Shown here one piece after another: positions 1,841 to 64,000 of a stretch of DNA of 64,000 bases. How positions within the stretch are numbered: position 1 is the first letter of the stretch; every line of letters begins with the position of its first letter. Source of the DNA: Enoplolaimus lenunculus (Eukaryota > Nematoda > Enoplea > Enoplida > Thoracostomopsidae); NCBI GenBank assembly GCA_030248215.1, contig JASANG010000670.1, positions 142,910-206,909 of the forward strand, read 5' to 3'. Made by a program: the position numbers and the translations under genes. Under the pieces are notes generated by a model. It saw only the letters and a program-made list of their open reading frames with translations. It was not told the DNA's origin and made no database searches.

Positions 1841-2060
1841 CAGCGGGAAATCCGGTTCCGGCATTGTTGACCTTCCGGTTCCGATTCCGGTAAATTTGTA
1901 CCGGAATTATTAGGGTTATTTCACCAAAAATATTGCAAAAAACGAAAACTAAAATAAATTTTACGGTGACCTGTATTTTTCATTTTCTGGTACCGGTACC
2001 GTTTCATGTAACTTTTTCAAATTCCGGTTCCGGTAGAACTGTAATTCTGGTTGCACCCTG
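1841..2060 (+). mobile_element. MITE-like element F1, short copy
   Basis: It starts with a degenerate CAGCGGGAAATCCGGTTCC and ends with GGTTGCACCCTG, the inverse of the family start CAGGGTGCAACC. The interior carries alternating CCGGTTCCGG blocks as in the longer copy at 10550-10955. No transposase is present. Confidence 0.6.
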
Positions 2061-2073
2061 CCAGTAATGTTAA

Positions 2074-2336: not shown

Positions 2337-2393
2337 TTAATGGTCGACTTATTTTAAATACCATCTCTGCTAAAACGTACACAAACCACTTAC

Positions 2394-16470: not shown

Positions 16471-17021
16471 AACAACTATAGGAACAATTTCAAAAAACCC
16501 TGCAGTATAGGACTGCTTTTCACAAAACCCCCAAAACAACTCATCAAGAACAGCTAAAGCACATAAAGAAATAGGTTTTATATTGGCTGGTGTTCGAAGG
16601 CATGTCTTTAATCGCATTTTGACTCGCGTATTCCTAACAGGGTGCGGCCCATGGTGCAACCGGGTGAAAGGTACCGAAGCCGGAGGTCAACGAAACTTAC
16701 CGGAGCCGGGGGTGTGGTGAAATTAGGTAGTAAAAACGATGGTTACTTAGTTAATTTTAGCTCTTTGCAAAATATTGTTAAGTTGTTTGGTTTTACGCTA
16801 ATTTTCTGCGAAATTTCGGAAATTCTTTCCGGAAGATTGTGACAAAACGAAACGCGCTAAACAGATAAATTTTGCAAAATATGCAAAATTTTACTACCGA
16901 AATAGCAGGTCCGGCAAAAATATCTACAGGAGCCGGAGGCCGATTTTCTGCCTGAGCCAGAGGCCGATTTTCTGCCTGAGTCGGAGGCAGATTTCTGGTT
17001 GTACCAGAATTCCTAGGCCGG

Positions 17022-17185
17022 CCCATGTATAGAACAGGGCCGGATCCTTTTCCGAAGGGGCTATAATAGTCAGTTTAAGCTTTAGGCTAATTTGTTTTGC
17101 TTCTTAGGCTTAGGAGTAGGCTCATCCATACGATTAGGCTTAGGAATATGCTTATACTACTGTTCCGGCCCTGTTCAATACATGG
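17022..17185. mobile_element. MITE F2 (TTAGGC-rich), subfamily b, in tandem copy 1
   Basis: Ends CCCATGTATAGAACAGGGCC and the inverse GGCCCTGTTCAATACATGG. Interior TTAGGCTTAGGA hexamers. Repeated at 17736-17899 in tandem copy 2; another subfamily-b copy is at 45522-45690. Confidence 0.65.
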
Positions 17186-17735
17186 ATCCTTAAGCCTAAG
17201 CGTTGCAAAAGTGTGTTCCTTAAGACTGCTTTTCACCAAACCCCCAAAGAAACTCATCAAGAACAGCTAAAACACATAAAGAAATAGGTTTTATATTGGC
17301 TGGTGTTCGAAGGCATGTCTTTAATCGCATTTTGACTCGCGTATTCCTAACAGGGTGCGGCCCATGGTGCAACCGGAGGTGAAAGGTACCGAAGCCGGAG
17401 GTCAACGAAACTTACCGGAGCCGGGGTTGAGGTGAAATTAGGTAGTAAAAACGATGGTTACTTAGTTAAATTAGCTATTTGCAAAATATTGTTAAGTTGT
17501 TTGGTTTTACGCTAATTTTCTGCGAAATTTCGGAAATTCTTTCCGGAAGATTGTGACAAAACGAAACGTGCTAAACAGATAAATTTTGCAAAATATGCAA
17601 AATTTTACTACCGAAATAGCAGGTCCGGCAAAAATATCTACAGGAGCCGGAGGCCGATTTTCTGCCTGAGCCACAGGCCGATTTTCTGCCTGAGCCGGAG
17701 GCAGACCTCTGGTTGTACCAGAATTCCTAGGCCGG

Positions 17736-17899
17736 CCCATGAATAGAACAGGGCCGGATCCTTTTCCGAAGGGGCTATAATAGTCAGTTTAAGCTTTAGA
17801 CTAATTTGTTTTGCTTCTTAGGCTTAGGAATAGGCTCATCCATACGCTTAGGCTTAGGAATATGCTTATACTACTGTTCCGGCCCTGTTCAATACATGG
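17736..17899. mobile_element. MITE F2, subfamily b, in tandem copy 2
   Basis: Same element as 17022-17185, carried along by the 713-bp duplication. Left end CCCATGAATAGAACAGGGCC, right end GGCCCTGTTCAATACATGG. Confidence 0.65.
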
Positions 17900-18146
17900 A
17901 TCCTTAAGCCTAAGCGTTGCAAAAGTGTGTTCCTTAAGACTGTTTTCACCAAACCCCCAAAGAAACTCATAAAAAGAACAGCTAAAACTTCCAACATAGA
18001 GGATTGATATTTGCTGCTTTGCGATGACATGTCTTTTAATCGCATTTTGACTCAAGTTCAGATTTGACTTTAGGTTTCTAGCTTTGACTTAAACGCCACG
18101 TTATTTTTACCAGAATTTACTTAAGATTTGTTGTTTTGACAATGCG

Positions 18147-18324
18147 GAAGGTGCAACCGGAATTCACCATTTTCGTTAAAGTTGAAGCCCGGGGAAAATT
18201 TTTCGCGTCTCAATAGCGTTAGCGGGAAATTAAAACATTTTTGAAACTTTTATATTTCAATATCCGTTCCCGTTATTTCTATCATTATCCGTTTCCATAA
18301 TTTTTACGACTCGCTTACACCCTG
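18147..18324. mobile_element. Degenerate F1 element
   Basis: Left end GGTGCAACCGGAATTC and right end CGCTTACACCCTG keep the family pattern. The interior is shortened and diverged. It lies in the gap between the tandem array and the 3' end of EXOC4; the rest of that gap (18325-18949) shows nothing recognisable. Confidence 0.5.
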
Positions 18325-18949
18325 CTATAAAAGGGGCCATAAAATTCTGATGTTTTCATCAACTATATTGCCTCGTGTAGTTTTCCGACCGGACAAGCAA
18401 GTCACGGAAATTCCGGTGTTGTATAGGAAACCCAGATCCCGGAAAAAATCTGCTCATTCCTAGAAAAAAATCAGGTCCCCGTCCGAATTCCTGACCCTGA
18501 CCTTTAATACATGAGGCGATATTCTTGACATATTAGTCTCGAAAATTTAAGAGTGTATTGAAAATTTAAATGTGTCTTGAAGATGTTTTTTCGTGTAGTT
18601 ACAAATGTTTCTTATGTTTGGCATTCATTTGTGTTCGGATGCTAACTCAAAGCCCATCTATGCCATAAAAACAAAAAACTCTATACCGCTTAGCCAACAA
18701 AGCAATGTATATGCGTGGAATTCTATTTACAAGAGATGATTATATAAACATTGATAAATTTATAAGTAAAATGAAAATACACAGCATATCACAGTGTTAA
18801 ATATAGAGGAAAAATTATTATCTCTAATAGGTCTCTATTTCGATATTAAATATATTACATTACAAACATGGACATCAAACTGTGACTGTCCTGCGCACCA
18901 ATGTCTCCAAAGAATATTTGACACTACACTTTCTGGAACCGAAACATAA

Positions 18950-40459: not shown

Positions 40460-41468
40460 TAATGGTTTTGTTGCATGTCGAATGTAAATTATTTTTGAAT
40501 TAAATGTTGTGTGCAGTTCAATGCATTGAGTGGAGTTCTATATCCCTGTCATGTTTTTACTAAGCAACAGCCATTTAGATTGATAACTAGAGTGTAACCG
40601 GATAACTGTTTTCGTTAAAGAATTACGAAAAATTTCAGCCAATGGCAAGTACATTGGCGCCAAACCTCTTGTAGTCCCGCAGAAAAACGTTCCACCCCTA
40701 ATAAGGTTCCTTAAGCAAGCAGTCTCTTTCAAAAACGTGACGCTCGAACAGAGCGGGCTCTCATTATGGCATGAACCGGCCCGGATTTTTCAGGCCCACG
40801 CCCGGCCGCCTTAGTTTTTTGTTTTCGAAAAGAAAACAAGAATAAGTTACAAAGCAAACCTTATAGTTGCGGATTCGCAGTTTTGACTGCGGATGGAATT
40901 GCATTATTACAATTTCTTGTACAATTAAGAGGAAACGAACAAGTGTGTTTCAAGCAATTTTTCACGTCTGCATGTTGATGCAAATGTGTATTCAGCATGT
41001 TTCACAAAATATTTGTTGCAGCCATATTTTTAAATGCTGAGCATTCCAATTATATATTTAACGCAATTCATGTGTGCAATACAAAATTGAAAGTATCGGA
41101 ATCAGTATTCTTCCAAAATATCGATTACAGTACCGATACCGATGTATTGGTTCTACACTACTATGCAGCATAAAATCAGTTTTCACTAGAGCAAGTACTT
41201 ATCAATTGTATTAATTTTCTATTTGAATTCAAACAATTTATATGAATTAAAATATATTAGCATTATAAATTGAGCGAGTTACCTAATAAATAAAAATGAA
41301 ATTAGGAAAGCGCGACTTTTGTGATTGTGAAAATGTAGTTTTTAATTTTCATGGAAATATAGCTTAACAGTTCTCAAACAATTATAACGTGAGTATATAT
41401 GACTTTAAATTTGAATATTATCGCACTTAAGGTAAATTTACATCAAATTTCTTCCTAAAGCTTAGTAA
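40460..41468. other. Non-coding stretch downstream of EMC2-like exons
   Basis: 40600-40710 holds the right end of an F2 element (CCGCAGAAAAACGTTCCACC). 41085-41160 has TATCGGAATCAGTATT and ACCGATACCGATG blocks of a hAT-like relic. The missing C-terminal EMC2 exons were not seen. Confidence 0.4.
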
Positions 41469-42649
41469 CTAGAATGAAAAGTGCCCCGATGTGGCCATAG
41501 AAAACGATATGTTTCGGGTAGTAAGATTTTTAGTTCAATACCGCTAGTATTACGATTTCCATGCATGCGTATAAAGTTTTAAAACTAGATTAATTTGATG
41601 CCAATCAGCGTCCTGCCGAAGCACGACACAACAATACTATAGAATTAATAAAAGTTAAATCATTGAGTTTGATTGACTGCGTAACGGAAACATATCCGCA
41701 ACTTTTTCGGAGAAAAGTCGCAGTAGATAGTAAAGTGTCCCGACGAGGCTATAGAAACCTATAACGCATCAAGTTTTGGAGCTGTATAAATTTTGTACCG
41801 TACAGTGCCCTCTCCATACTTGGCTAAACGGTACCCAGATTTTAAACTTTTAAAACATTAAAATATTTGAGTGAGTACGTAGCGAAACAATATTTGCAAC
41901 TTTGCTGACGAAATCTGTGTTGTATTCCAATGACGGCCAATGTAAAGATCTGGGGCGGAACTTTTTTCTGCGGGACTAGAATAGAATAAGCTCAAAGGTT
42001 TAGATTAATTTTTTGCTTGGTTTAGGCTTAGGATTATGCTCATTCTACGCTTAGGTTTAGGCTTAGGAATATGCTCATGCTAACGCTTATGCTTAGGTTT
42101 AGGATTAGGAATATGCTTATAATACTGACCCGCTCCTGTTCTTTACATTGAGCCAATTGACGAACAAACACGTTTTTAATATTGGGTCACCAGCATTTTA
42201 CGCTTAATTTCTACTTATATACTCTTTTTAAAACCCAAAATTTTTCTGCATATAGTCGAAACTTCAGTTTACTAAGTGCAAGAAACTAATGTCACGAGTG
42301 TGTACTCAAATTTTTTACATCAACCATAATTCGTCATTTATATTCAAGTATTTATTTCTTGTTTTAATATTTCGAAACAGTGGATCACATGTCTATTTGG
42401 CCGCTGTCACAGAAAGTTGCGGATATGTTTACGTTACGCAGTCAATCAAACTCAATGATTTAACTTTTATTAATTCTATAGTATTGTTGTGTCGTGCTTC
42501 GGGAGGACGCTGATTGGCATCAAATTAATCTAGTTTTAAAACTTTATACGCATGCATGGAAATCGTAATACTAGCGGTATTGAACTAAAAATCTTACTAC
42601 CCGAAACATATCGTTTTCTATGGCCACATCGGGGCACTTTTCATTCTAG
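41469..42649. mobile_element. Element F8 with 238-bp terminal inverted repeats
   Basis: 41469-41706 is almost exactly the inverse of 42412-42649 (ends CTAGAATGAAAAGTGCCCCG and its inverse). A perfect 6-bp TAGTAA lies on both sides (41463-41468 and 42650-42655). The interior of about 700 bp contains a complete F2 element (41937-42150) and a diverged internal copy of the end sequence (41731-41770). No transposase. Long-TIR, foldback-like non-autonomous transposon. The open frame reading into the right repeat is a by-product. Confidence 0.85.
41937..42150. mobile_element. MITE F2 (TTAGGC-rich), best-preserved copy
   Basis: Ends CCAATGTAAAGATCTGGGGC and the inverse GCTCCTGTTCTTTACATTG. Between them lie three tandem units of TTAGG(T/C)TTAGGA(A/T)TATGCT..TCTACGC. 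Inserted in the middle of element F8. Confidence 0.75.
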
Positions 42650-42677
42650 TAGTAAAATTATTTGAAGCGTTTTTCGA

Positions 42678-45600: not shown

Positions 45601-48098
45601 CTTAGGCATAGGCTTAGGCTTAGGAATACGCTCATCCAAACGGTTAGGCTTAGGCTTAGGCTTAGGAATATGCTTATTACATGGGCCTGGCACATTATAA
45701 AGCTTAAGAGAAAATGTTGACCTGCAGAATCTACAAGATTGTTCTATGTTTCGTTAAAAATGCGCTCTTTCTAGTCGCTTCTGAAATTTCGTTATCGGCT
45801 GTATCCCCTATACCACTTCGCTTGTTTACTCCCTAGTTTTGGCTCGACAACAATGAAACTCGAGCGAAAGTGCGGTGAGTTCGGCCATCGTACACGTTTC
45901 AGTTAAACACGTCCCTGATGTTGTGATTATTCGTTTTTAATCAATAATAAGCTGGTACTAAAGTATATAACTCAATTCATAATAGTGTGATCTTTACCGT
46001 CTACAGCCCCCGTTAATACACACGCACATCGTTGTTCTGATTAAAATTTTTTAAAATTCGTTAAACTTCGAATCTCAGTGGCATTCAAAATTCTGGTATC
46101 TGTCAATACTTTTTTGTAAATTTTATGCGAACCAAAATGTCATTTGAGCTTGTAATACTTACTTTGTCTTTGTTAGCTAACACCAAAACCGCGACAACAA
46201 GCTGTCCCATTATCAGAATGACCATAATTGTGACAAACTGAAATATTGGCAAGGACAGACTTTAGTGACCCACAATATGAAGGGAGAGATTGATATTTAT
46301 TTCGCCTCATCAAAAGGTTGCCTCAATTGCTATTCGGTTCCGCGATGTAAAAATTATTTTTCATTCCTGCTTCAGATGCTTTGACAACGCACCTTTAAAC
46401 TTTACTCCAGCCGTTTTCTATGTATAAGTTCTTTACTTACAAAATTCGGTAGGCTCACCCTGTTTTGGAAAAGTAGTCCTTACGCGGAGCCATTATGGCT
46501 CATGCACACCCCGTTCCTCATTTAAGGTTACGGTGCATGCTTAGGCTTAGGTTCAGCCTTACGTTTAGGTATAAGTTTGATAAATAGGGTTAGGCAAAGG
46601 CTTCAGTTATGAAAGCCTGTTTTAAAACTTGAGCCTGAGCCTAAGCATAAACCATTAACCTGTGTGAGAAAAGTGTACAAGAGCCGGCATTAGCGCATGC
46701 TTCCACGTGATTACAGATAACTGCCGTATACGTATCACAACCTACATGACTACCAGCAATACTCGCACCCCCGTAACTTGGCGGCTTGGCTTTGATTCCC
46801 ACGGGGATCCAATGAAAATTTTCGGTGGAGTCGGATGGGGACAGGTTTAAATGTCTTACCAGATGACGTCTCTGAACAGCACAGATTGATGTTACTCTTG
46901 TATCGAACTCATGGTTTTCCGGCGTGAGAAAAATAGTTTTAAATATTTCAGTTTCAAAGTGTACTTAGTGAAAATTTTTTTGATGTTTGAAAAATTCAAA
47001 TAAGCACCCAAAGTGCAAATTTTTCGGAATTCTTGTAATATTCGTTGCATATTTTTTAGCTGTTTTGCTACAGAAAACATTGTAAGCTTCAAGCAACCAA
47101 TTTTGTATAGTAAAATTTTCAACAACTCAGGACTCGCGAACGAGACAAATAGCCCCCTTCATTCACCGTTACGAATCTGCCACAGTCCCAGGCCCGTAGC
47201 TTAGCTCACCTTGCTAGAGGGGGGGAGGGGCTAAAAATTTTCAGGAGGGGCCTTCAAGGGTTTTCAATGAGTTACAAGCAAGGTTGAAAACTTTCTAGGA
47301 GGGCCAAAATTTTCCAGTGAGGCTGAGCTTCTTTGGGCCCCCTTGGCTACGGGACCGCGCAGTCTCCATCCAGGATTCGAAACCTTACCGTCCCGAGCAG
47401 GCAAGGGCTTTCAGTCATAGCTCCACAACATCCCAAGAACCCGACAGCCATCAGTAGCGCTCCGATGATCATTCCAATTACTAATAGAGCACGAATGTCA
47501 CTTTCGTCCTCTTCGACTGATGCCTGAACCAAAATTTCATTTCAAACATTTCAGATTGAGCGGAAATTCGATTTTGAAATTTAGTTTAGGCTTAGATTTT
47601 AGGCTTTTAGCCTAGAGCATATGTCACAATTGTGGTTAGGTCTTAAGCTATGCGGTTTCAAAGATTTAAATCGTTTAGATTATGTAGCTTACAAAACGCT
47701 ATTTGTCTAACGACGCATATTCTCAATTGCATATAGAATTTATCTTCAGTTAATGATGGGTTTCGGTAAAGACATATTAATGTTTTCTAGGAGTCGCCAC
47801 AATGTAGTCGCTTTCATCCAAAATGCAACTGCTATGTTTAAATATCGTTTTGCTTTAAAACCCCGTTTCTGCAAAACGTTCTATCACTGCGTGAAATTTT
47901 CCGTAATTGGTTACAAATTTAAATTATAAAAAATGCGGGGGAAACTTTTCGCCACCCTTCATTCACCCGCTGCCCCCCTTTGCTTTGCGTAAATCTGCAA
48001 ACACTTACTTTAACCTCAGAATTTTTCATTAAATACTGTTTCACTGGATCGAGCGCAAATGCAGCTACGCTGCCTGCAAGTATTGCAGCGCCAGCAAT
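42678..48098 (-). CDS. Tetraspanin, seven exons (N-terminal exon not found)
   Basis: Tetraspanins are four-pass membrane proteins that organise receptors and adhesion molecules into membrane microdomains. Minus-strand exons, all phase 0: 48009-48098 (second part of TM1, IAGAAILAGSVAAFALDP), 47389-47523 (TM2 with the diagnostic FLGCCGAMTES), 46163-46237 (TM3, ending LANKDK), 45038-45127 and 44404-44481 (large extracellular loop with the CCG motif LRCCGVSG), 43633-43716 (GCSKAIYSKLKEH then TM4), and 42678-42737 (end of TM4, LCCAILKEEY, stop TGA). The loop has six cysteines, the common arrangement, but is short. The initiator exon with the first half of TM1 was not found up to 51 kb. An in-frame extension above 48098 has no ATG. 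The subfamily is not determined. Confidence 0.92.
42800..43131. mobile_element. MITE F3 in the last tetraspanin intron
   Basis: 332 bp from CAAGAGTGGATGATCACTG to TGATCATCCACTCTTG. Flanked by CTTAAAC and CTTAAAT (7 bp, one mismatch). The ends form a long inverted repeat including TGGGTACATTCTGTGTATTA. The interior has C-run/G-run hairpins. Confidence 0.85.
44640..44720. repeat. F2 fragment in tetraspanin intron
   Basis: CCGCTTAGGCGTAGGCTTTC, ATATTGTTACGCC and related pieces only. Both ends degraded. Confidence 0.35.
45522..45690. mobile_element. MITE F2, subfamily b, in tetraspanin intron
   Basis: Starts CCCATTTATAGAACAGGGCC, contains a run of TTAGGC hexamers (45600-45670), ends near TTACATGGGCC. 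Confidence 0.65.
46500..46660. repeat. F2-like fragment in tetraspanin intron
   Basis: GCTTAGGCTTAGGTTCAGCC and its inverse-like GAGCCTGAGCCTAAGC lie about 90 bp apart. Terminal sequences are missing. Confidence 0.4.
47191..47354. mobile_element. MITE F6 next to tetraspanin exon 47389-47523
   Basis: GGCCCGTAGCTTAGCTCACC at the left, TTGGCTACGGGACC at the right. Interior ACAAGCAAGGTTGAAAAC. It ends about 35 bp from the TM2 exon donor, so the splice site survives. Confidence 0.65.
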
Positions 48099-48164
48099 CT
48101 GAAACATTGCAATCAACAAAATATCACTCTTGCATTCACGAATTGTCAATAAGTCACACCCTTA

Positions 48165-48289
48165 TATTTCAGGAGGAGTATAGAAGAGTTTTCGATGACT
48201 TACAAGCAAGGTCAAAAACTGTCAAGCGAGGCCAACATCCTTTCAGGGGGGTTGAGCTCTCACCCCTGCTCCCCTCTGGCTGCGGGCCA
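48165..48289. repeat. Partial F6 element
   Basis: TTACAAGCAAGGTCAAAAAC and CTCTGGCTGCGGGCC match the family. The left terminus is gone. Confidence 0.45.
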
Positions 48290-48404
48290 GCATTAGATTA
48301 GAGAGATTTAGAGGGTGCGAAAAACTTTTTTCAAACATTTCTTTTAGTGCTGTTGATTTGCGGCCCTGCAAAGCAAAAATATATGAAACAGTTTTACAAG
48401 TTAC

Positions 48405-48594
48405 GGATGCGCTATACTTTACTGTTCCAGACGCTGCCGTTCGCCGCCGCAGGCCGCCGTATGCCGCTACGCGTTGCTAACAAAAACATAGGCGAAATCT
48501 CTTTGGTAGCGCGCAGAAATTTTTAACCAACAAATTTTTTCCTGCGGCAAGGCGGCGTCAGGCGGCGTGCGGCGAATATAGCGCAATTTTAAGG
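48405..48594. mobile_element. MITE F5 copy
   Basis: GCGCTATACTTTACTG at the left, inverse-like CGAATATAGCGCAATTTTAAGG at the right. GCC-rich blocks (GCCGTTCGCCGCCGC; GGCGGCGTCAGGCGGCGTGC) lie inside. Confidence 0.6.
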
Positions 48595-49242
48595 CTGTAG
48601 ATATTTAGAAAACTTAGGAGCTTCTACAGAGTTGTTTTAAAAATATAGTAAAATGCAAAAAATGGGCTATTTTTTGTGCAACCTAAGTACCCAGGGATTT
48701 GAATAAAATCTGATAAGTCCTAAAACGAGTGCTTTGACAAGCGTGTGGAAAGTTAGGTTTGGAGTCTAATTGCAAACAAAAGCGTATTTTTGAGTGGAAC
48801 GGTATCAGTCTAGTATATGCGTCAAAGCATTGCTCTACGCCAGCTATCTGCCTTCGAGTTTCTCTCTAATATGAAAGCAAAAAGCGCTGTACAGTTGGGG
48901 CTTCTGCGTTAAATATTGGTACATGTAAGCCAGTACTGTAGTGACCCGAATACGAGGGGTAATAAGAGGGTTCCTCATTTTGAGTCCCAATCAATAGGAG
49001 TCCGTATCCCTAATAAGAGTCCGTGAGGGCAAAAAGTCCCCAAGCCCTAATTAGATCCGACAAACGTCAATTGTTATTATTAGTATTGTATAAATGACTC
49101 CAGGACCAAATAAAACACAGTTCGAAACTTTAAAGCTTATTCGAAACTTTAAAGCGTATTTAAGTTTCGGAAGTATTCCTAAGTATAACATTGCATTATC
49201 GCTTAAGCTTTTGACACAGGACAAATAAACGTTTAATTCAAC

Positions 49243-49577
49243 CAAGAGTGGATAATCACTCTTTATAACAAGAGTGTGCAACTGGGTACATTCTGTGTTT
49301 TAAAGAATGTACCAGCACGCGTTGCATTTTTGTTCGACCCCCCTCAATCAGGAGGGGGTTTAAGCAAGAGATTAACAGTATGTTTCAGTACACCTACCCC
49401 CCCTTAAACAAGGGGGTACAATTTGCTCATAGCATTACTACGATATAAAACTGCATACATACCCCCTAAACAAGGGGCGGGTAGGCCAAAAACGCAACGC
49501 GTGCCGGGTACATTGTTTAATACACAGAATATACCCAGTTGCACACTCTTGTTATAAAGAGTGATCATCCACTCTTG
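49243..49577. mobile_element. MITE F3 with exact 7-bp target duplication
   Basis: 335 bp, CAAGAGTGGATAATCACTC to GTGATCATCCACTCTTG, flanked by ATTCAAC on both sides (49236-49242 and 49578-49584). Same internal plan as the other F3 copies. Confidence 0.88.
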
Positions 49578-50114
49578 ATTCAACGGAGAGTTGTAATACC
49601 GGACGAAGGGCGGCGGAGCGTGGGTTAAAAATAAATAACAGTCCGTAATAGAATAACAGAGGGAACCCTCTGGAAAGACGAAATAAATATCAGTGTCCTC
49701 TCTTATTCGGGTCACTACAGTATATATTCATGTCGTTCTGACGTATGAATTCTACATTTTTGTTTAGAATGAGCCTTGGATTTCAACCTGGGAACTCTTA
49801 TAAATTTTTTCCCACACACAACGAGAAAAAATACATACAGATAAACATACAAAAACAAGAAAATTTGTAACAAACACAACGTATTTCGTCGCACGTGAAC
49901 CGCAACTTAGATCGACTCCCATTTTTGATATATATTACTATTATGACATAAAAGGATTTATATCGATATCGTTATATACAGATTAATCCGAACGTCATCT
50001 TTTATCCACCTAATATGGTTAGTATTACTGTAAATATATCAGATTAGAAGCTAAAAATCGAATTTTTCAAGCTATCAAATTTGGGTGTGGATTGATCATT
50101 AATAGCGATGTTCA

Positions 50115-50475
50115 GTACTCTCTAATAGCTTAAACTAACTTGACTTAAGCTTAAGCTAAAATCCAGTAGTATTAAACTAACTTTCTGTAATAACTTAACT
50201 AACGGGTAGTATTACGCTTAAACTAATTTAAAATCTTACGTATTTTTAGTTTAAGCTAAACTTAGTGAACTCTTTGATACACATAATTTCTGGGCTGCAC
50301 TTGTTGCTTAATCTAAAAATAAGTTCACTTAAACTGGTGTTAAACTTAAAAATATAATAGTTTACGTAAAACTTAAAATTCTAGTTTAGTAGTCCGTCCA
50401 GCCATTTGAGTTTTACTTAAACCAATATTCAAGTTTAGTTTAGTTATAATTTAAGTATAAGTTTTTAGAGAGTAG
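50115..50475. repeat. TTAAACTT-rich element with inverted ends
   Basis: GTACTCTCTAATAGCTTAAACT at the left is the approximate inverse of the right end (ACTTATACT side, TTTTTAGAGAGTAG). The interior is a dense mix of CTTAAACT and AGTTTAAG. Probably another MITE. Confidence 0.5.
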
Positions 50476-50602
50476 GCGCTCAAATATGCTAAATTAACAA
50501 TTTTGTTTAAAAGATTCGTACGGTACACGCCGGTTATTGCGGAATTTTCATAGCTTAAACTGTGAAGTAGCGTATAGCAATTCGATCGTGATCAAACAGA
50601 CT

Positions 50603-50768
50603 CGCCCGTAGCCAGCTCACGTAACTTTTGAGTAAGGACTAAACTTTTTTCAACAGGGTCATACAACTGTTTTCTACGACTTTACAAGCAAGGTTGAAAA
50701 TTTTCTTGTATGGGAAAAATTTCTTCCAGGGTGAAGGAGTCCTCTTAGACCCCCTCGTTACGCGCCTG
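50603..50768. mobile_element. MITE F6 copy
   Basis: CGCCCGTAGCCAGCTCACG at the left, CCCCCTCGTTACGCGCC at the right. Interior TTACAAGCAAGGTTGAAAA. Confidence 0.6.
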
Positions 50769-51942
50769 TACGCGCAATGAGGTCCCCCCATATAATAAAT
50801 AACACTATTAAAGGTTAATGTTATTCGTTTTGAAGAATTAAAAAAACATTTTGCGTTATACTGGAGTACCTGGCAGTACCATTTTTAACGCCGAGGTAAA
50901 TGATACGTAACAAAAGAGCATACATCAGAAAACGCTGAACCAAGCGAGATGATTTAAGCGTTCATTGTCTAAATATATTTTTGTTTCAAGTGTCCAATAT
51001 TCTCGCCACTTCTAAAACTGCAAAAATTCAATACTGCGTTTAACTCGATTTGAACCGCAAACTGACTTCCACGTCGCTTAATTGAAACCTCTCCATATGT
51101 AAATTTTATACAAAACGTAGCTATCACTTACAACTAGTAATAGGCAATGGCGGAGCAATGGGGGGCCACCTTGGCCGTCGTCCCCCCAACAGCATCTCAA
51201 CAAAAATTATATAGAGCGTCAATTGCTGTTTCACGCTGTTCCGAAATTTTCAAAAACAAAACAGATGTTGCTGAAGCTGACTGGATTTTTCTTTTTCAAA
51301 ACTGAATTGGCTTCCGATTCCGAGCCCTTAAATTTGTGCCTGTGTGAAAACAAATCTGAACTTATGTTGCCACCATGTTGTTTAGATATAAATTGCGTTG
51401 ATGCGTTAGTTTTATTTGTGATTCATTTCAATTGAACGAACTTAAAGAAGTCAATGTTACGGCAATAGTTCGTGGTTTGTGCGTGGGTCAAAAATAAGTT
51501 TATTACTTATGAAATTTTGCTCCCCCCCCCCCATTGTGAGATCCTGGATCGGCCACTGGTAATAGGTGCTACACACAGTTGAGAATACAATCACAAATTA
51601 CAATACCAAAATCAACATATCTGTGTGTCATTCGGTTCAAAAACAACTGAACCATATAGCAAAAAATAGCCTAAGGGCGCAGGCACAGGGCTGCTAATTA
51701 GGCCGTGGCCATCGAATAGCGTTCAAATTAGAAAAAATTACAGTTTGTCAAATATTCTTGTATTGCTGAGATAAATTGATTTTTATACAGAAAGTATTTA
51801 TTTGTGCATTCATTAATATCTTGGTCGTTTCTCCAAGCAGCCCTTACTGCGCCCAAGGCCAAAAATTGATTTCGAACCCCAACTTATTGATGTCAATTTA
51901 GTGGGTTACCTTAAACCTAAGCCAATTATATAGCATATTGCG

Positions 51943-52139
51943 GCCAATGTAAAAAACAGGGGCGGAACAGTATTATAAGCTTATTGCTAAGCCTTAGCCT
52001 AAGCCTACGCCTAAGCCTAAGCGTAAGAATGAGCATATTCCTAAGTCTGTGCCTAAGCCAAGCAAAACAATAGTTTAACGCTTAAGATTACTCTTTTCTA
52101 GTCCCACAGAAAAACGTTCCGCCCCTGATCTTTACATGG
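51943..52139. mobile_element. MITE F2 in left arm
   Basis: CCAATGTAAAAAACAGGGGC to the inverse CCCCTGATCTTTACATGG, with CCTAAGCCTAAGC hexamers. Mirror copy at 62942-63138. Confidence 0.7.
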
Positions 52140-52797
52140 ACCCATATAGCGATGCATCTAAATGAGAGGTGATTAAGATTAAATTTAGAACACATTTATA
52201 CTATAGTTTTATCTGTTGTTGTGGTTACCTCCTATCAGTAAACAAAATTATACCAAAGGTTGTTGCAGTTAAGTAGGTTGGCATTGTCAAAATTTTCAAA
52301 CGAAACCAGATGATTGTTTTTGAAATCGAAAAATGGAAACACAATTTGAAGAATTGTAAAAGCGAAAATTGATTTTGAAACAGAAGACCAGAAAAGTTGT
52401 TGAGGTAAAAAAAGTTCTTTTCAAACGTCACAAGCTCTCATCGAGGTGATCAGGTGAGCGAATTGTTTAAAATTTGAGCTCTGTTCGGAATTTCATATTG
52501 TGAAATTTACAGCTTTTTATAAAAAATATGCGTTTTTAAATTTTGTCACCTAAATTTTGTAAATTGTAATCTATATTTAACCAAAGTTATAAAGAAATAT
52601 GTGAGCAAAATAAGACTGTTTCTCAAATTTTCAAAATAAAAAAAGTCTTACATACGAAGAAATGTCATGGCTTTTAGCTATACCTAGTAAGCATATATTA
52701 CCACCTAAAAGATACGACCAGGACGTAAAATTTAAGGTTGGAAAGCCCTTAAGTTAGTATGTTCAAGTTAACATGTCTAAATTTTAACCCTTTCTCA

Positions 52798-53050
52798 AAT
52801 TGAGTTGGCGATAGGCAACTCAGCGCGGTGTATATACGTTAAATAATATATATCGCACAGTGTTCAGCAATTGTAACACGTATACAGAGTACTAAATCAC
52901 CACAAGACGTGAGAGCCCCCTCGGGCTCGAGCGTCAAGCTCCTATAACTGAGTGGTGATGGTATACACCTCCCACTACAGTCACTGGAGTTCGAATCCTA
53001 GCATAAAAGTAGATCTCAGGGGAAATAGATAATATTCATGTGAGAAAGGG
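52798..53050 (+). mobile_element. TTAA-flanked MITE F4 with tRNA-like segment, left arm
   Basis: CCCTTTCTCAAATTGAG to ATGTGAGAAAGGG between TTAA sites (52794-52797 and 53051-53054). The tRNA-like part (about 52948-53010, plus strand) has a degenerate A box (TAACTGAGTGG) and an intact B box (GAGTTCGAATCC). Confidence 0.75.
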
Positions 53051-53400
53051 TTAATTGTTTACTTTTCCAACTACAAAACGTAGGAAGATGTGGGATACAC
53101 TAAAACAACCAGTGGAACCAGAAGGGGAGCGGCATGAAGGGTACACGCCCCGTCATAAATTTTTATGTGATAAAATGGTAAGGTCCCTACTTTTACTTTA
53201 CAATTTTCCTCCTCAGAAAATTGGCTCATATATAGTAGTCAGTAAAAATTGCGTTTCATAACTTTTGTCAACACGCCTCGCGCCGTCAGATATTTTTGGA
53301 TCCACGGTTGACTAAACACTAGGAAGTATCTCGTTGAACACTAGACAATTTATGTCTTAAAAGTCAATGTAAATTTGTTTTCTATAGGAATCAGTATCAT

Positions 53401-53938
53401 CAAGAGCGGATGATTTTGGACAAGAGTGTGCAACTGAATGGCATCGCGTGGTACAAAACGTACCAGCACTCGTTGTGTTTTTGTCATACCTCCATTATTT
53501 GGGGGGTGGATTTATCGGAAGAATGCAATTGAGATAGCGTTTAAAAGTATAATAGCAGCAACCGACAACGCTTAAACACTAAGATAATCGTTCAACGGCA
53601 CCTGCCTAAACAAGGCGGGGTCAGTCAGAAATACAACGCGCATTGAGTACGTTTTTGTACACAGAATGTACCCACACGGGACACTGCAAAAAAATTGTGA
53701 GTCAATTGATTCTCTCCGAAATAGGTTTTTCCAGACTACACAAACGGAGTCAAAATTCGACTCCGCCATCGTCGTATTTGACTTACTGAGCCACTCACAG
53801 AGTCGAACTTGAATCTGGCGGAGTCGAATTTGACTCAGTTTGTGTAGTTTGGAAAAGCCTATTTCGGAAGAAGTCAATTTGATTCACCATTTTTGCAGTG
53901 CAGTTGCACACTCTTTAGTAAAAGATCATCAACTTTTG
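53401..53938. mobile_element. MITE F3 carrying a nested element, left arm
   Basis: CAAGAGCGGATGATTTTGG to GATCATCAACTTTTG. Flanks GTATCAT and GCAACAT agree at 5 of 7 positions. Interrupted by the CACTGCAAAA element 53682-53900. Confidence 0.7.
53682..53900. mobile_element. Nested MITE with CACTGCAAAA ends
   Basis: CACTGCAAAAAAATTGTGAG at the left, inverse CACCATTTTTGCAGTG at the right. Inside, CCGAAATAGG..TTTTTCCAGACTACACAAAC has an inverse partner. Other copies: 61182-61399 and 57159-57349. The open minus-strand frame through it is a by-product. Confidence 0.7.
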
Positions 53939-56880
53939 GCAACATCAGCTTCTTGAACCAAAAATAAAGTGTTCAAACGTTAAAAACATCACACGTCTCA
54001 TTCTTTAAGCTGAACATTTGCAATTTCACAACATTACAACATTACGTGCTTATATTTCTGCTAATGGACCTCAAAGCATAAATCACTTGAAATTTTTGAC
54101 AAGTTAAGCATGCAACAAGCCTATATATTAGTACGGCGTCACTTCGTAAACCTTAACCAGCCATTTGCTTCAAGACCTAACCACAAACTGGCAAAACGTG
54201 CTAATAGTGACTTAACATTTCGTTTAAAGCTTATTCGTCATATTTACTACCAAAATCGTAAATAAAAATAAAATATTTAAATAACTCTTTTTAAATACAA
54301 TGGTAAGGCTCCAGAACAAACACGGGCTACAACCACGTACCGCCGTTACCCGTAGCAACGTCAATATCGATATAGGTACATATCGACGTCTGGTACCAAG
54401 TGAATAATAATCATCTTTTCTCCCCTCATTGTAAAATGGCCGTACACCTTTGTTCTATAGGTGGCTTTCATTTTTGGGTCCTATATATTTTGCCGACAGT
54501 TTGCTATTTGTACCATATGAAAAATGGAACGTCGATAATTACATATACGCAAGTAGCATAGTATTCTCAAATGTGTGTAGCACCAATCGCCAACTGATGA
54601 TAAAACGGTAGTTTCTGGAACTGTACTTTAAACGACTGTTCAAGTAAAGTGCTAAGCAACTTTTAATCAATTCATCGTTTTTAATATCGTGGTTAAAAGT
54701 AAATACTTAACTTTTCGAACAAAACGGAAAACTTGTTTAATTTGAGCGAGTGTCTGGAAAGTCACAGTTTTACTTTAAGGAGGCACCTTGAGGCTGAAAT
54801 CCGAATTTGACTAAGGTTGATATTTAATAGTGTTGGGCAGATATAATAGGTACCGGTAAAATCAGGGTATCGGAACCTGTATCGGTACCGGTATCAGCGT
54901 ATTTCAGAACATATCGATAACGATTCAGTTACTTTTTAACTGTGTTATTAGACGAACTTAGATCAATATAGAATTGCCTAGCATCTAAAGAAGTATATAC
55001 TAATCATGGGCGGTTGCGAATATAGCGCGAAGCCTAGATGCAGGCTAATAAATACGGACCTAAAGGATTAATACCGTTTTTTGATTGTTAAAGCATTTCT
55101 TATGGCTACAACAAATAGTCTAAAAAACATTCCGTGAACGAGCATTTGCGGCTCGATGCACAGAGTGACTGCCTCGAAAGAATGCTGAACACATTGGTTC
55201 ATTCACTTGTTCAGCGATTTTTGTTTCCGAGAGACAATTTTACTGGAGCTTGTTCTGTTACGCACCAAATTTTGTCTTCGACAGAAAGTATATACTTAAG
55301 TAAGATTTTGGAAACGCAGCCGTTGTCAGATTATAGAACAAGTTTGTCATAGTGGAAAATAGGAGTTGTTTGCAATTTGCACTGCAATTTTTGCAACATT
55401 CTTTGTGAGACGGCCTGATAGCCGTCTCTTTGGAAAGAATTGAATTTTAGGGGTTCAGATTTTACAATGTGTTTTTCTATTAACATTAAATCGGTTCATA
55501 GTTTTGTTTTGGTTTTTGGCTTTAGCTCTCTCCAATATATGTTTGTTGTCGAATTTAGTCAAAAATTGTAGCATATATTTTGTATACAAAGAGTACACAA
55601 ATGTCTTATTTATGCTTTATCAGTCGAACATTTAACGCTTTAATTGCCGTGTTTCTGCTTTAAAGCAGCTTTACGTAATACTTCAGCCAAAAATTCGCGC
55701 GTACAAATTGCAGCTGCCGAGTTGAAAAACTTGCACGTGCGAATAGTGCTTTACAAATACATGGTTTTAATTCAAATGTTTATTTAGTTCCAATGTGAAA
55801 AATGAAGAAAATGTCATAAAATACACAGTAAGCGTCGAATATACTAACCAGAGTACAATCAACAAGTGCTTATGTTCGCCGAATGCAATTTATTTGCAGC
55901 TGCAAGTTTTCCAGATTATCGATTCCTTCCTACGGCGCTATTATCAAATATGTAAGCATAGGATATAGATCATACGTTGGTGCAGCGTACAATGTTTACA
56001 GAAAATATATCATGTAAGTGACAGATTAATAGAGGATAGATTCCTTCAGAAAACTCTTTTGGGACGTGGACAATGCGTAATTGACATACACTAGCGTTTT
56101 ATTCAGAAAGTTTGCACTGAGTTTAGGTTTTGGCAATTTTTTTCGTATCACAAATTGCGATATAAAACACGCTAAATAACATACGAGGCGTGGTACGTAG
56201 GTACTTGTTTATTTTCCACCCATATAATATCACCGCAATAACGATGCTGAGCCTAAGCTTAAGTCTAGAGCCTCACTATAAGCTTAAGTCTAAACCTAAG
56301 GCTATAAGTATGTGATAATAAAACACTGCGGATGGAACTTTTACCTTCTATTAAAATTAACACTGCTTGTCGAACGAAACATATCCCATGAACACAGTAT
56401 TCAAAAATTATTAGGCGATACGCAGTAAAAAAAATTTCCACAAAACAAAGGGACAGTGTGGCATATAGGTTGAATTGCTATTGGGAGAAACTTTAGAGGT
56501 CTTGCCTGTGGTAAATTAAGCCCAAACTCGCTAAAAGACGTTACACACTATTTATGAGCATAATTTTTTTTTAAGAAAAGTGAGTTCAGAAAATGACAAC
56601 AATCCTTAAATTTTAGACCACCTGCAACAAAATAAGTAAGTAGGCGAGCCACCTCCTACTTTCATGCGCGAAACAAAACAGACGCAAATATATACTGAAA
56701 AAGTTTTGAAAAGTAACAAAGTAAAACACAATATGTCAACAAATACACCAACAATAATACAAAGAACAATATGAATATATTAATATATTGTCATATATAA
56801 ATTAAAAAAAATAGCAAATTAAGGGAGATAAGTGGAAATGAAAATAAAATTTTCCAATTAAGTAAATAAATTTATATATA

Positions 56881-56900
56881 AAAAAAAAAAAAAAAAAAAA
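56881..56900 (+). repeat. A20 tract with upstream AATAAA
   Basis: AATAAA at 56865-56870 precedes a run of twenty A beginning 10 bp later, the layout of a retroposed poly(A) tail. It starts about 115 bp inside the loop. Confidence 0.45.
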
Positions 56901-57158
56901 TTTTGATTGATGAATCTATTTGTTTTACCCAGAAAATAGCTAAAAAAAAAAAAAAAAGAGAAAAGTATTGTTTCGTATGAGGCGATAAGGTGAAAAAAAT
57001 AAAGTTGTTTATATTGGGTTGAATTAATTTATTAGACTTAATTGGAAGAATTCAACATTTGTTCACACATGATTTTTATTTAGTAATGTTTGTTTTATGC
57101 AGTAACTCTTTCGCCTATCAAATTGTAGTCGAAATATACATGCAAAAAAGATCAATAC

Positions 57159-57349
57159 TCTCTCGACTCTCTCGAAATAGGCTTTTCGACTACACAAACT
57201 GAGTTAAAATTCGACTCTGCCTGAGTCGAATTACTCAATTTATCTGCAAGTCAATTTTAACTCAGTTTGTGTAGTCAGGAAAATCCTATTTCGGGTGTAC
57301 AGGAAGTTATTGGAGAGAGTCAATTTGACTCACCATTTTTTGCAGCGTA
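57159..57349. mobile_element. CACTGCAAAA-type MITE in loop, left end degraded
   Basis: CTCGAAATAGGCTTTTCGAC and the inverse AGGAAAATCCTATTTCGGG, ending in CACCATTTTTTGCAG. Same family as 53682-53900. Confidence 0.55.
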
Positions 57350-57756
57350 GGGAGTAGTGCCTTGGAGATGTAACTTGCGTTTACCCGTTCTCACATAGAG
57401 TAGTCTATGAGCAACTTAGTATAAAATGTGTAAACGATAAATTAGTCAAAATGCATTTGTTAACAATTACTACGCGTATAGGAGTTTAAACTCTCCGCTG
57501 CGCCCAAGCGTTAAGCTTCATGCTATAAATAATTTCCAACCCAGGACTCATGGGATCGATTACTGACTTAAGCGTATGTCTTTGTCGCCTGCCAATGTTA
57601 TTTATCGGGGCGTAACCGTATTAAAAGCATTTTCATACGAATAAGCCGAAACCTAATCCTTGGTGTAAGGATAAGCCTATAACTAAGCCTAAGTAAATAA
57701 ATTAGTCAACAGCTTAAGCTGACTATATGACAGTCTCGCGAAAAAATGATTTGTAC

Positions 57757-57986
57757 CTCAAAGTAAGATTACTCAGAATGAGTTGAATCACTCAGTCTAA
57801 ATCAAGACTATCAAAACTCAGAAATATGAGCTACTTCAACTCATTCTGAGTTAAATCATTAACTCAGACTGAAGCAATTCAACTAAGAGCAAAAGCCAAC
57901 TCAACTCAGAGTGAGTTAATGATTACTGCTATTAACTCAAACTCGCTAGCTGAGTTGATTATTCAACTCATTGCAATTTACAGTGA
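57757..57986. mobile_element. MITE F7 in loop
   Basis: Inverse orientation of 32294-32522: ends ..GCAATTTACAGTG. Repeated GAGTTGA/TCAACTC hairpins. Confidence 0.6.
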
Positions 57987-58099
57987 TATATTTTACACAT
58001 TAATGAGAACTAAATATTGTGTTACTTATAACCTTAGTTGCTAACCGTAGATTCTAATTTATCTTCATACTTTAACATAATAAAGTTTTATATCTTGGG

Positions 58100-58272
58100 C
58101 ATATGTAAAAATCGAAGGCGGGACGTTTTTCTGCGTAACTGCAATAGAGTAAGCTTATGCTGTAGACTACTTTTTTTGTTCAGGCTTACGCTTTAGGTGT
58201 AAGCTTACGTTCAAGCTTATAGGTTTAGGAATATGCTTATAATACTGTTACGGTAAGTTTCTATACATTGAC
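58100..58272. mobile_element. MITE F2 in loop, next to right arm
   Basis: ATGTAAAAATCGAAGGCGGG at the left, TTCTATACATTG at the right, interior TTCAGGCTTACGC and TAGGTTTAGGAATATGC. Confidence 0.5.
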
Positions 58273-61143
58273 CATATCTTGTAATGTCGTTTTGGATTGG
58301 GTGTCTTTGTATTATTGTTGGTGTATTTGTTGACATATTGTGTTTTACTTTGTTACTTTTCAAAACTTTTCAGTATATATTTGCGTCCTGTTTTGTTTCG
58401 CGCAATGAAAGCTAGGACGCGTAGGCTCAGCCTACTCTACTTATTTTGTTGCAGGTGGTCTAAAATTTAAGGATTGTCTGTCATTTTTGAACTCACTTTT
58501 CTTAAAAAAAATTATGCTCATAAATGAGTCGTGTAACCGATCTTTTAGCGAGTTTGGGCTTAATTTACCACAGGCAAGACCTCTAAAGTTGTCTCCCAAT
58601 AGCAATTCAACCGTATATGCCACACTGTCCCTTTGTTTTGTGGAAATTTTTTTACTGCGTATACGCCTAATAATTTTTGAATACTGTGTCATGGGTATAT
58701 GTTTCGTTCCACAAGCAGTGTTAATTTTAATAGAAGGTAAAAGTTCCATCCGCAGTGTTTTATTATCACATACTTATAGCCTTAGGTTTAGACTTAGGCT
58801 TATAGTGAGGCTCTAGACTTAAGCTTAGGCTCAGCATCGTTATGTGCGGTGATATTATATGGGTGGAAAATAAACAAGTACCTACGTACCACGCCTCGTA
58901 TGTTATTTAGCGTGTTTTATATCGCAATTTGTGATACGAAAAAAATTGCCAAAACCTAAACTCAGTGCAAACTTTCTGAATAAAACGCTAGTGTATGTCA
59001 ATTACGCATTGTCCACGTCCCAAAAGAATTTTCTGAAGGAATCTATCCTCTATTAATCTGTCACTTACATGATATATTTTCTGTAAACATTGTACGCTGC
59101 ACCAACGTATGATCTATATCCTATACTTACATATTTGATAATAGCGCCGTAGGAAGGAATCGATAATCTGGAAAACTTGCAGCTGCAAATAAATTGCATT
59201 TCGGCGAACATAAGCACTTGTTGATTGTACTCTGGTTAGTATATTCGACGCTTACTGTGTATTTTATGACATTTTCTTCATTTTTCACATTGGAACTAAA
59301 TAAACATTTGAATTAAAACCATGTATTTGTAAAGCTCTATTCGCACGTGCAAGTTTTTCAACTCGGCAGCTGCAATTTGTACGCGCGAATTTTTGGCTGA
59401 AGTATTACGTAAAGCTGCTTTAAAGCAGAAACACGGCAATTAAAGCGTTAAATGTTCGACTGATAAAGCCTAAATAAGACATTTGTGTACTCTTTGTATA
59501 CAAAATATATGCTACAATTTTTGACTAAATTCGACAACAAACATATATTGGAGAGAGCTAAAGCCAAAAACCAAAACAAAACTATGAACCGATTTAATAT
59601 TAATAGAAAAACACATTGTAAAATCTGAATCCCTAAAATTCAATTCTTTCCAAAGAGACGGCTATCAGGCCGTCTCACAAAGAATGTTGCAAAAATTGCA
59701 GTGCAAATTGCAAACGACTCCTATTTTCCACTATGACAAACTTGTTCTATAGTCTGACAAGGGCTGCGTTTCCGAAATCTTACTTAAGTATATACTTTCT
59801 GCCGAAGACGAAATTTGGTGCCTAACAGAGCAAGCTCCAGTAAAATTGTCTCTCGGAAACAAAAATCGCTGAACAAGTGAATGAACCAATGTGTTCTGCA
59901 TTTTTTCGAGGCAGTCACTCTGTGCATCGAGCCACAAATGCTCGTTCATAGAATGTGTTTTAGACTATTTGTTGTAGCCATAAGAAATGCTTTAACAATC
60001 AAAAAAACGGTGTTAATCCTGTAGGTCCGTATTTATTAGCCTGAAATTAGGCTTCGCGCTATGTTCACAACCGCCCATGATTAGTATATACTTCTTTAGA
60101 TGCTAGGCAATTCTATATTGATCTAAGTTCGTGTAATAACACAGTTAAAAAGTAACCGAATCGTTATCGATATGTTCTGAAATACACTGATACCGGTACC
60201 GATACAGGTACGATACCCTGATTTTACCGGTACCTATTATATCTGCCCAACGCTATTAAATATCAACCTTAGTCAAATTCGGATTTCAGCCTCAAGGTGC
60301 CTCCTTCAAGTAAAACTGACTTTCCAGACACTCGCTCAAATTAGACAATTTTTCTGTTTTGTTCGAAAAGTTAAGTATTTACTTTTAACCACGATATTAA
60401 AAAGATGAATTGATTAAAAGTTGCTTAGCACTTTACTTGAACAGTCGTTTTAATGTACAGTTCCAGAAACTACCGTTTTACCATCAGTTGGCGATGGGTG
60501 CTACACACATTTGAGAATACTATGCTACTTGCGTATATGTAATTATCGACGTTCCATTTTTCATATGGTACAAATAGCAAACTGTCGGCAAAATATATAG
60601 GACCCAAAAATGAAAGCCACCTATAGAACAAAGGTGTACGGTCATTTTACAATGAAGGGAGAAAAGATGATTATTATTCACATGGTACCAGACGTCGATA
60701 TGTACCCTATATCGATATTGACGTTGCTACGGGTAACGGCGGTACGTGGTTGTAGCCCGTGTTTGTTCTGGAGCCTTACCATTGTATTTAAAAAGAGTTA
60801 TTTAAATATTTTATTTTTATTTACGATTTTGGTAGTAAATATGACGAATAAGCTTTAAACGAAATGTTAAGTCACTATTAGCATGTTTTGCCAGTTTGTG
60901 GTTAGGTCTTGAAGCAAATGGCTGGTTAAGGTTTACGAAGTGACGCCGTACTAATATATAGGTTTGTTGCATGCTTAACTTGTCAAAAATTTCAAGTGAT
61001 TTATGCTTTGAGGTCCATTAGCAGAAATATAAGCACGTAATGTTGTAATGTTGTGAAATTGCAAATGTTCAGCTTAAAGAATGAGACGTGTGATGTTTTT
61101 AACGTTTGAACACTTTATTTTTGGTTCAAGAAGCTGATGTTGC

Positions 61144-61680
61144 CAAAAGTTGATGATCTTTTACTAAAGAGTGTGCAACTGCACTGCAAAAATGGTGAAT
61201 CAAATTGACTTCTTCCGAAATAGGCTTTTCCAAACTACACAAACTGAGTCAAGTTCGACTCCGCCAGATTCAAGTTCGACTCTGTGAGTGGCTCAGTAAG
61301 TCAAATACGACGATGGCGGAGTCGAATTTTGACTCCGTTTGTGTAGTCTGGAAAAACCTATTTCGGAGAGAATCAATTGACTCACAATTTTTTGCAGTGT
61401 CCAGTGTGGGTACATTCTGTGTACAAAAACGTACTCAATGCGCGTTGTATTTCTGACTGACCCCGCCTTGTTTAGGTAGGTGCCGTTGAACGATTATCTT
61501 AGTGTTTAAGCGTTGTCGGTTGCTGCTATTATACTTTTAAACGCTATCTCAATTGCATTCTTCCGATAAATCCACCCCCCAAATAATGGAGGTATGACAA
61601 AAACACAACGAGTGCTGGTACGTTTTGTGCCACGCAATGCCAGACAGTTGCACACTCTTGTCCAAAATCATCCGCTCTTG
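61144..61680. mobile_element. MITE F3 carrying a nested element, right arm
   Basis: Mirror of 53401-53938, with the CACTGCAAAA element at 61182-61399 inside. Outer flanks ATGATAC and GTTGC match the left-arm flanks in reverse. Confidence 0.7.
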
Positions 61681-62030
61681 ATGATACTGATTCCTATAGA
61701 AAACAAATTTACATTGACTTTTAAGACATAAATTGTCTAGTGTTCAACGAGATACTTCCTAGTGTTTAGTCAACCGTGGATCCAAAAATATCTGACGGCG
61801 CGAGGCGTGTTGACAAAAGTTATGAAACGCATTTTTTACTGACTACTATATATGAGCCAATTTTGTGAGGAGGAAAATTGTAAAGTAAAAGTAGGGACCT
61901 TACCATTTTATCACATAAAAATTTATGACGGGGCGTGTACCCTTCATGCCGCTCCCCTTCTGGTTCCACTGGTTGTTTTAGTGTATCCCACATCTTCCTA
62001 CGTTTTGTAGTTGGAAAAGTAAACAATTAA

Positions 62031-62293
62031 CCCTTTCTCACATGAATATTTTCTATTTCCCCTGAGATCTACTTTTATGCTAGGATTCGAACTCCAGTGA
62101 CTGTAGTGGGAGGTGTATACCATCACCACTCAGTTATAGGAGCTTGACGCTCGAGCCCGAGGGGGCTCTCACGTCTTGTGGTGATTTAGTACTCTGTATA
62201 CGTGTTACAATTGCTGAACACTGTGCGATATATATTATTTAACGTATATACACCGCGCTGAGTTGCCTATCGCCAACTCAATTTGAGAAAGGG
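62031..62293 (-). mobile_element. TTAA-flanked MITE F4 with tRNA-like segment, right arm
   Basis: CCCTTTCTCACATGAATATT to AATTTGAGAAAGGG between TTAA sites (62027-62030 and 62294-62297). The tRNA-like B box reads on the minus strand. Confidence 0.75.
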
Positions 62294-62941
62294 TTAAAAT
62301 TTAGACATGTTAACTTGAACATACTAACTTAAGGGCTTTCCAACCTTAAATTTTACGTCCTGGTCGTATCTTTTAGGTGGTAATATATGCTTACTAGGTA
62401 TAGCTAAAAGCCATGACATTTCTTCGTATGTAAGACTTTTTTTATTTTGAAAATTTGAGAAACAGTCTTATTTTGCTCACATATTTCTTTATAACTTTGG
62501 TTAAATATAGATTACAATTTACAAAATTTAGGTGACAAAATTTAAAAACGCATATTTTTTATAAAAAGCTGTAAATTTCACAATATGAAATTCCGAACAG
62601 AGCTCAAATTTTAAACAATTCGCTCACCTGATCACCTCGATGAGAGCTTGTGACGTTTGAAAAGAACTTTTTTTACCTCAACAACTTTTCTGGTCTTCTG
62701 TTTCAAAATCAATTTTCGCTTTTACAATTCTTCAAATTGTGTTTCCATTTTTCGATTTCAAAAACAATCATCTGGTTTCGTTTGAAAATTTTGACAATGC
62801 CAACCTACTTAACTGCAACAACCTTTGGTATAATTTTGTTTACTGATAGGAGGTAACCACAACAACAGATAAAACTATAGTATAAATGTGTTCTAAATTT
62901 AATCTTAATCACCTCTCATTTAGATGCATCGCTATATGGGT

Positions 62942-63138
62942 CCATGTAAAGATCAGGGGCGGAACGTTTTTCTGTGGCAACTAGAAAGAGTAATCTTAAG
63001 CGTTAAACTATTGTTTTGCTTGGCTTAGGCACAGACTTAGGAATATGCTCATTCTTACGCTTAGGCTTAGGCGTAGGCTTAGGCTAAGGCTTAGCAATAA
63101 GCTTTATAATACTGTTCCGCCCCTGTTTTTTACATTGG
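62942..63138. mobile_element. MITE F2 in right arm
   Basis: CCATGTAAAGATCAGGGGCG to CCCCTGTTTTTTACATTGG with TTAGGC hexamers. Mirror of 51943-52139. Confidence 0.7.
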
Positions 63139-64000
63139 CCGCAATATGCTATATAATTGGCTTAGGTTTAAGGTAACCCACTTAAATTGACATCAATAAG
63201 TTGGGGTTCGAAATCAATTTTTGGCCTTGGGCGCAGTAAGGGCTGCTTGGGAAACGACCAAGATATTAATGAATGCACAAATAAATACTTTCTGTATAAA
63301 AATCAATTTATCTCAGCAATACAAGATATTTGACAAACTGTAATTTTTTCTAATTTGAACGCTATTCGATGGCCACGGCCTAATTAGCAGCCCTGTGCCT
63401 GCGCCCTTAGGCTATTTTTTGTTATATGGTAAGTTGTTTTTAACCGAATGACACACAGATATGTTGATTTTGGTATTGTAATTTGTGATTGTATTCTCAA
63501 CTGTGTGTAGCACCTATTACCAGTGGCCGATTCAGGATCTCACAATAGTGGGGGGGGGGGGACCAAAATTTCATAACTAATAAACTTATTTTTGTCCCAC
63601 GCACAAACCACGAACTATTGCCGTTAAGATTGACTTCTTTAAGTTCGTTCAATTGAAATGAATCACAAATAAAACTAACGCATCAACGCAATTTATATCT
63701 AAACAACATGGTGGCAACATAAGTTCAGATTTGTTTTCACACAGGCACAAATTTAAGGGCTCGGAATCGGAAGCCAATTCAGTTTTGAAAAAAGAAAAAT
63801 CCAATAAGCTACAAGCAACATCTGTTTTTGTTTTTGAAAATTTCGGAACAGCGTGAAACAGCAATTGACGCTCTATATAATTTTTGTTGAGATGCTGTTC
63901 AAGAGAAGACGGCCAAGGTCGCCGGAAGGTGCTCCGCCATTGCCTATTTGCTAAGCTGTAAGTGATAGCTACGTTTTGTATAAAATTTACATATGGAGAG

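Follow-up and report, generated by a model that had tools for sequence, protein, structure and literature searches.

A terminal palindrome in the Enoplolaimus lenunculus assembly, very probably built from fold-back reads

The palindromic end of contig C376

The window analysed here is a stretch of 64,000 nucleotides of the nematode Enoplolaimus lenunculus, positions 142910-206909 of contig JASANG010000670.1 (hereafter C376) in assembly GCA_030248215.1, which counts 296 Mb in 3185 contigs. As assembled, it finishes with a large inverted repeat: 51089-56765, on the plus strand, matches the reverse complement of 58304-64000 (minus strand) at 97.7% identity by self-BLAST, with 81 mismatches and 48 gap openings over 5712 aligned columns. 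This match is far beyond chance, and a sequence-only reading of the window, which had announced a near-perfect palindrome whose arms differ by a few percent, was right about the repeat itself.

The same reading let the right arm run off the window, so that the total size was left unknown. C376 has 206,909 bases: the last base of the window is the last base of the contig, and the outer edge of the palindrome is therefore the contig end. The inner arm (51089-56765) runs on into the rest of C376, and the terminal arm (58304-64000) is presumably its fold-back copy. Searched against the assembly, the last kilobase of C376 has a single other near match (96%), which lies in the inner arm. As to the 1.54-kb “loop” separating the arms, most of it, 57087-58303, is a single reading of a stretch that we call E; the other 321 bases, 56766-57086, are of odd composition. 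No gene had been proposed to explain the conservation of the arms, and indeed no obvious one appears: four open reading frames (ORFs) of at least 90 amino acids overlap 48000-64000, the longest of 109 amino acids, none of them having been put through a family search; Rfam gave nothing at its gathering scores.

A second palindromic end and the stretch shared with it

Contig C644 (144,212 bases) has a palindromic end as well: 132346-137837 pairs with the reverse complement of 138717-144212 at 98.5% identity, with 39 mismatches and 36 gap openings, and the repeat stops at the last base. Both palindromic ends contain E, a stretch of 1.78 kb which occupies 57087-58867 of the window on the plus strand and corresponds to 137975-139781 of C644 (minus strand); the two versions are 96.2% identical and differ by 11 mismatches and 38 gap openings. 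Such a pattern, few mismatches and many gaps, would point to read errors more than to evolution. Besides E, the comparison of the window with the last 46 kb of C644 revealed nothing in common except short repeats, of ~320 bases at most.

In the assembly searches, which score 40 candidates each and where we call near-identical a match of at least 90% over at least 100 bases, DNA near-identical to 57000-58000 occurs, among the matches listed, only on C376 and C644, on the latter twice and in opposite orientations; for 58001-58867 the near-identical matches are, among those listed, on the same two contigs only. The remaining listed matches of E show 69-92% identity over ~340 bases at most, and correspond mostly to short repeats inside E. 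E is partly self-complementary; it also carries at 57771-57985 a repeat of ~215 bases with short inverted repeats, present at no fewer than ~40 places with 74-82% identity and suggestive of a small dispersed element.

E is delimited on one side by the fold of C376 and on the other by that of C644. Such limits are expected for an overlap between two contigs that reach one locus from opposite sides and both double back there; a dispersed repeat would instead be recognised by ends and flanks of its own. The possibility that E is a transposon was also set aside, since it begins and ends at the two fold points and C376 and C644 are the only contigs listed with near-identical copies. E would rather be the overlap of the true ends of these contigs, the true order being probably C644 body, E, then C376 body reversed.

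Eleven contig ends not selected for palindromes (starts of C376, C644, C58, C217, C482, C641, C853 and C1012, ends of C549, C161 and C1229; 8 kb each) were examined for terminal inverted repeats. One of the eleven, C482, has such a repeat, a proportion that is a lower bound because a fold lying more than 8 kb inside a contig would escape notice. Its 14-3505 segment pairs with 7814-4338 at 88.5% (196 mismatches, 156 gap openings), with the outer edge at contig base 14, or base 6 in another comparison. The identity is low over most of the arm, as for an arm made of a raw read; alternatively, an old real inverted repeat may have been cut by the contig end.

Two further contigs came up as chance mirror-image matches in other searches, and the ends and one inner piece of each were compared. 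In C2558 (18,763 bases), bases 1-700 pair with 16454-15756 at 98.0% and the inner piece pairs at 99.5%; most of this contig looks palindromic, and its central stretch is G-poor from about 8000 on. In C520 (167,870 bases), bases 1-700 pair with 36793-36093 at 98.7% and the inner piece at 94.8%, which suggests terminal arms of ~18 kb; the centre, 18279-18534, is self-complementary (79.6% over 284 columns, 2 mismatches, 16 gap openings). Thus five inverted copies were found (C376, C644, C482, C520 and C2558), and all five reach a contig end. That of C482 was searched for at contig ends only; the matches of C644, C520 and C2558 could have fallen anywhere.

Differences between the copies

The number of gap openings per substitution is 0.59 for the window arms of C376, 0.92 for C644, 0.80 for C482; between the two versions of E it reaches 3.45. 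For native repeats of the same genome (25 pairs of at least 200 bases and 85-99% identity, taken from window positions 1-51000, the body of C644 and ten contig-end pieces, with the palindromes and C482:1-8000 left out) we counted 166 gap openings to 555 substitutions, i.e. 0.30. Relative to substitutions, indels are thus 2-3 times as frequent between palindrome arms as between native repeats, a comparison whose P values are rough since some control pairs overlap within one tandem array and the low-complexity filter used for the control was not applied to the palindromes.

Along the arms of C376 the mismatches are unevenly distributed. There are 1-6 of them per 500 bases over 51589-54588, with no difference at all at 52104-53029, then 34 at 54589-55588; the agreement falls towards the centre, where the final 177 bases (from 56589) gather 25 mismatches. 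This decay does not fit the abrupt inner boundary described by the sequence-only reading.

Each of C376 and C644 carries one full E plus one partial inverted E on its body side. In C376 this partial copy, at 56215-56765 on the minus strand, covers positions 1218 to 1781 of E and is rich in differences; in C644 it covers positions 1 to 1031. Differences private to one copy were counted in three-way alignments of the E copies, two of which come from one contig and hence are not independent. Over positions 1218 to 1781, the body-side copy of C376 has 56 private differences, its terminal-side copy none and the C644 copy 8; those of the body-side copy decrease with the distance from the fold (33, 20 and 3 per 200 columns). 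Over positions 1 to 1031, we found 78 for the terminal-side copy of C376, 3 for the terminal-side copy of C644 and 55 for its body-side copy. All 78 are inside the first 600 columns, which adjoin the C376 fold, and 43 of the 55 are located from column 600 on, nearer the C644 fold. Differences thus concentrate at the folds of both contigs.

The C376 spacer, 321 bases at 56766-57086, contains 49% A and 6% C and lies beside the probable fold at ~57087. It might be a garbled, shortened copy of positions 1 to 1217 of E. In a tile scan its last 80 bases, once C-stripped, place best inside E and on the expected strand, which is suggestive only. The C644 spacer (137835-137974, 140 bases) has almost no T. 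When T-stripped and aligned to positions 1032 to 1781 of E, the part absent from the body-side copy, it scores 196.7 and beats 282 of 282 decoys (mean 166.3, standard deviation 5.3, maximum 186.3). We read C644 as a hairpin without true loop, in which the second pass would have lost most of 750 bases.

We also tried the spacers as garbled copies of the flank of the neighbour contig, by local alignment. The window spacer against the C644 flank gave a z of -3.1, and in the decoy test 222 of 276 and 265 of 276 decoys were as good. The C644 spacer against the C376 flank gave a z of 4.0 for a control at 2.1; this origin was dropped because the T-stripped fit to E is far better (196.7 versus 170.9, with 0 versus 51 of 282 decoys as good).

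Fold-back reads and the other explanations

In our opinion the C376 palindrome is an assembly artefact made by fold-back reads at a contig end, and very probably does not exist on the chromosome; this reading is drawn from the assembled letters. A fold-back long read would contain one strand and then its own complement, read as a single molecule. If ordinary coverage fails at the locus, such reads would carry C376 as far as a fold near 57087, from where the contig would retrace its own sequence; the point at which the reads run out would be the contig end. C644 would end likewise from the opposite side of the same locus, with E as the true overlap. The 1.54-kb loop would then be no real spacer: of two passes over E, one would have been good and the other, with bases miscalled or skipped at the fold, too poor to be aligned. 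The platform was probably nanopore, and the folding may have occurred at library preparation or whole-genome amplification, with a thin coverage of the locus and C644 and C376 presumably adjacent. In agreement with this, the match is to the opposite strand of the same place (97.7% in C376, 98.5% in C644), the copy ends at the contig end, and the differences concentrate at the fold in both contigs, exceptions being the C376 arms at their outer edge and the unplaced window spacer. The sharing of E by the two palindromic ends, the odd composition of both spacers, the indel-rich differences and the recurrence in other contigs point the same way.

Comparable objects have been described. According to Heinz et al. 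2026 (PMC12870357), fold-back artefacts represent ~0.55-0.6% of nanopore genomic DNA (gDNA) reads and are virtually absent from PacBio HiFi data. Like C376, these reads contain a near-perfect inverted copy of the same locus, the halves being separated by ~2 kb in one example; unlike them, the C376 case is known from assembly contig ends and not from reads. Spealman et al. 2020 (PMC7229812) reported that nanopore reads, once past the junction of an inverted duplicate, contain miscalled and missed bases, and that this bad part is shorter than what precedes the junction. We likewise observe apparently miscalled and missed bases by the junction and a bad part shorter than its presumed source, but the inverted duplications that they studied, in known strains, were real. 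The parts consulted of these two papers contain nothing on the present assembly.

Several points nevertheless weigh against the fold-back reading. Ten of the eleven unselected ends have no terminal palindrome within 8 kb, and the 7700-8800 stretch of C2558 gave no self-inverted match, so that this contig does not display the same kind of fold. In the C376 arms the outer edge is also rich in differences (24 mismatches at 51089-51588), hence there is no simple gradient. The 54500-55500 interval holds 35 of the 129 mismatches of a forced alignment, spread out and made of 22 transitions and 13 transversions as counted from the mismatch list; in the assembly search it is largely single-copy DNA, its next best match reaching 73% over 376 bases. 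These differences resemble natural divergence more than read error, and perhaps reflect two haplotypes; a fold-back molecule coming from the other haplotype would fit.

The spacers bring further reservations. The direct test of the C376 spacer against E failed, as the score is not significant: 72 of 276 decoys are as good with the unstripped spacer, 133 of 276 when it is C-stripped and 127 of 276 when it is A-stripped. Aligned unstripped to E in the expected orientation, the C644 spacer is not outstanding, since 65 of 282 decoys score as well, and on the opposite strand of E it narrowly tops all 282 decoys (149.9 versus 147.4). The self-complementarity of E may lie behind this opposite-strand score, which in any case weakens the test. 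As for the literature, some fold-backs recur at the same places, but few do so in the newest gDNA data (PMC12870357); the raw signal of eight artefact reads was not abnormal in the same work, in contrast to PMC7229812; and the latter indicates that miscalling after the junction arises at real inverted duplications too.

This last point equally favours the first alternative, a real giant palindrome or inverted duplication, formed by fold-back priming or by breakage with fusion of sister chromatids, and that the assembler failed to traverse. The arms are long and near-identical, and part of their differences resembles natural divergence, as discussed above. The sequence-only reading had likewise considered a giant palindrome younger than the transposon insertions of its arms, produced by fold-back replication or by an inverted-repeat element. 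However, in C376 and four other contigs alike the inverted copy breaks off with the contig, and a single E, bounded by the two folds, is common to two of these five palindromes whose arms are otherwise different; this would require a second, recently copied E. A real palindrome would have to fall at the contig end and, together with a second one, have the same bounded E, in an assembly that cuts other inverted copies alike; we hold it for very unlikely.

A related and still less likely possibility is that E is a special site of DNA breakage or folding in the living cell, the palindromic contig ends being real products (A-E-E'-A' and B'-E'-E-B). If true, hairpin-capped or inverted-duplicated molecules would exist on both sides of one site.

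The earlier suggestion of a mis-join during assembly stands as regards an assembly error, but not as regards its cause. The 35 spread substitutions of 54500-55500, in largely single-copy DNA, are haplotype-like; yet two divergent haplotypes share the same direction, so that their mis-join alone gives no inverted copy, whereas fold-back reads do, and the absence of any arm difference over 52104-53029 is also unfavourable. We see hardly any chance for this explanation. The weakest candidate, which we consider extremely improbable, is a large fold-back transposon, whose inverted repeats would form arms of at least 5.7 kb: long inverted arms do flank a spacer, but no ORF exceeds 109 amino acids, and the same arms with defined ends were not found at other loci with the two 1-kb pieces searched of the 5.7-kb arms, for which the partner arm is the sole near match, the last kilobase matching otherwise mainly a ~380-base inner repeat at 79-86%, and 54500-55500 matching otherwise at 73% or in short pieces.

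Elsewhere in the window, self-BLAST also detected a tandem duplication of ~0.83 kb with 95% identity at 16508-18053, and a pair of 238-base inverted repeats, 41468-41705 and 42413-42650, 99.2% identical and separated by 0.7 kb.

If the palindrome is indeed made of fold-back reads, it has little bearing on the biology of the organism. It rather calls for caution, since terminal palindromes, which recur in this assembly, may pass for segmental duplications, gene copies or giant palindromes. Trimming of the terminal arms would probably allow C376 and C644 to be joined through E.

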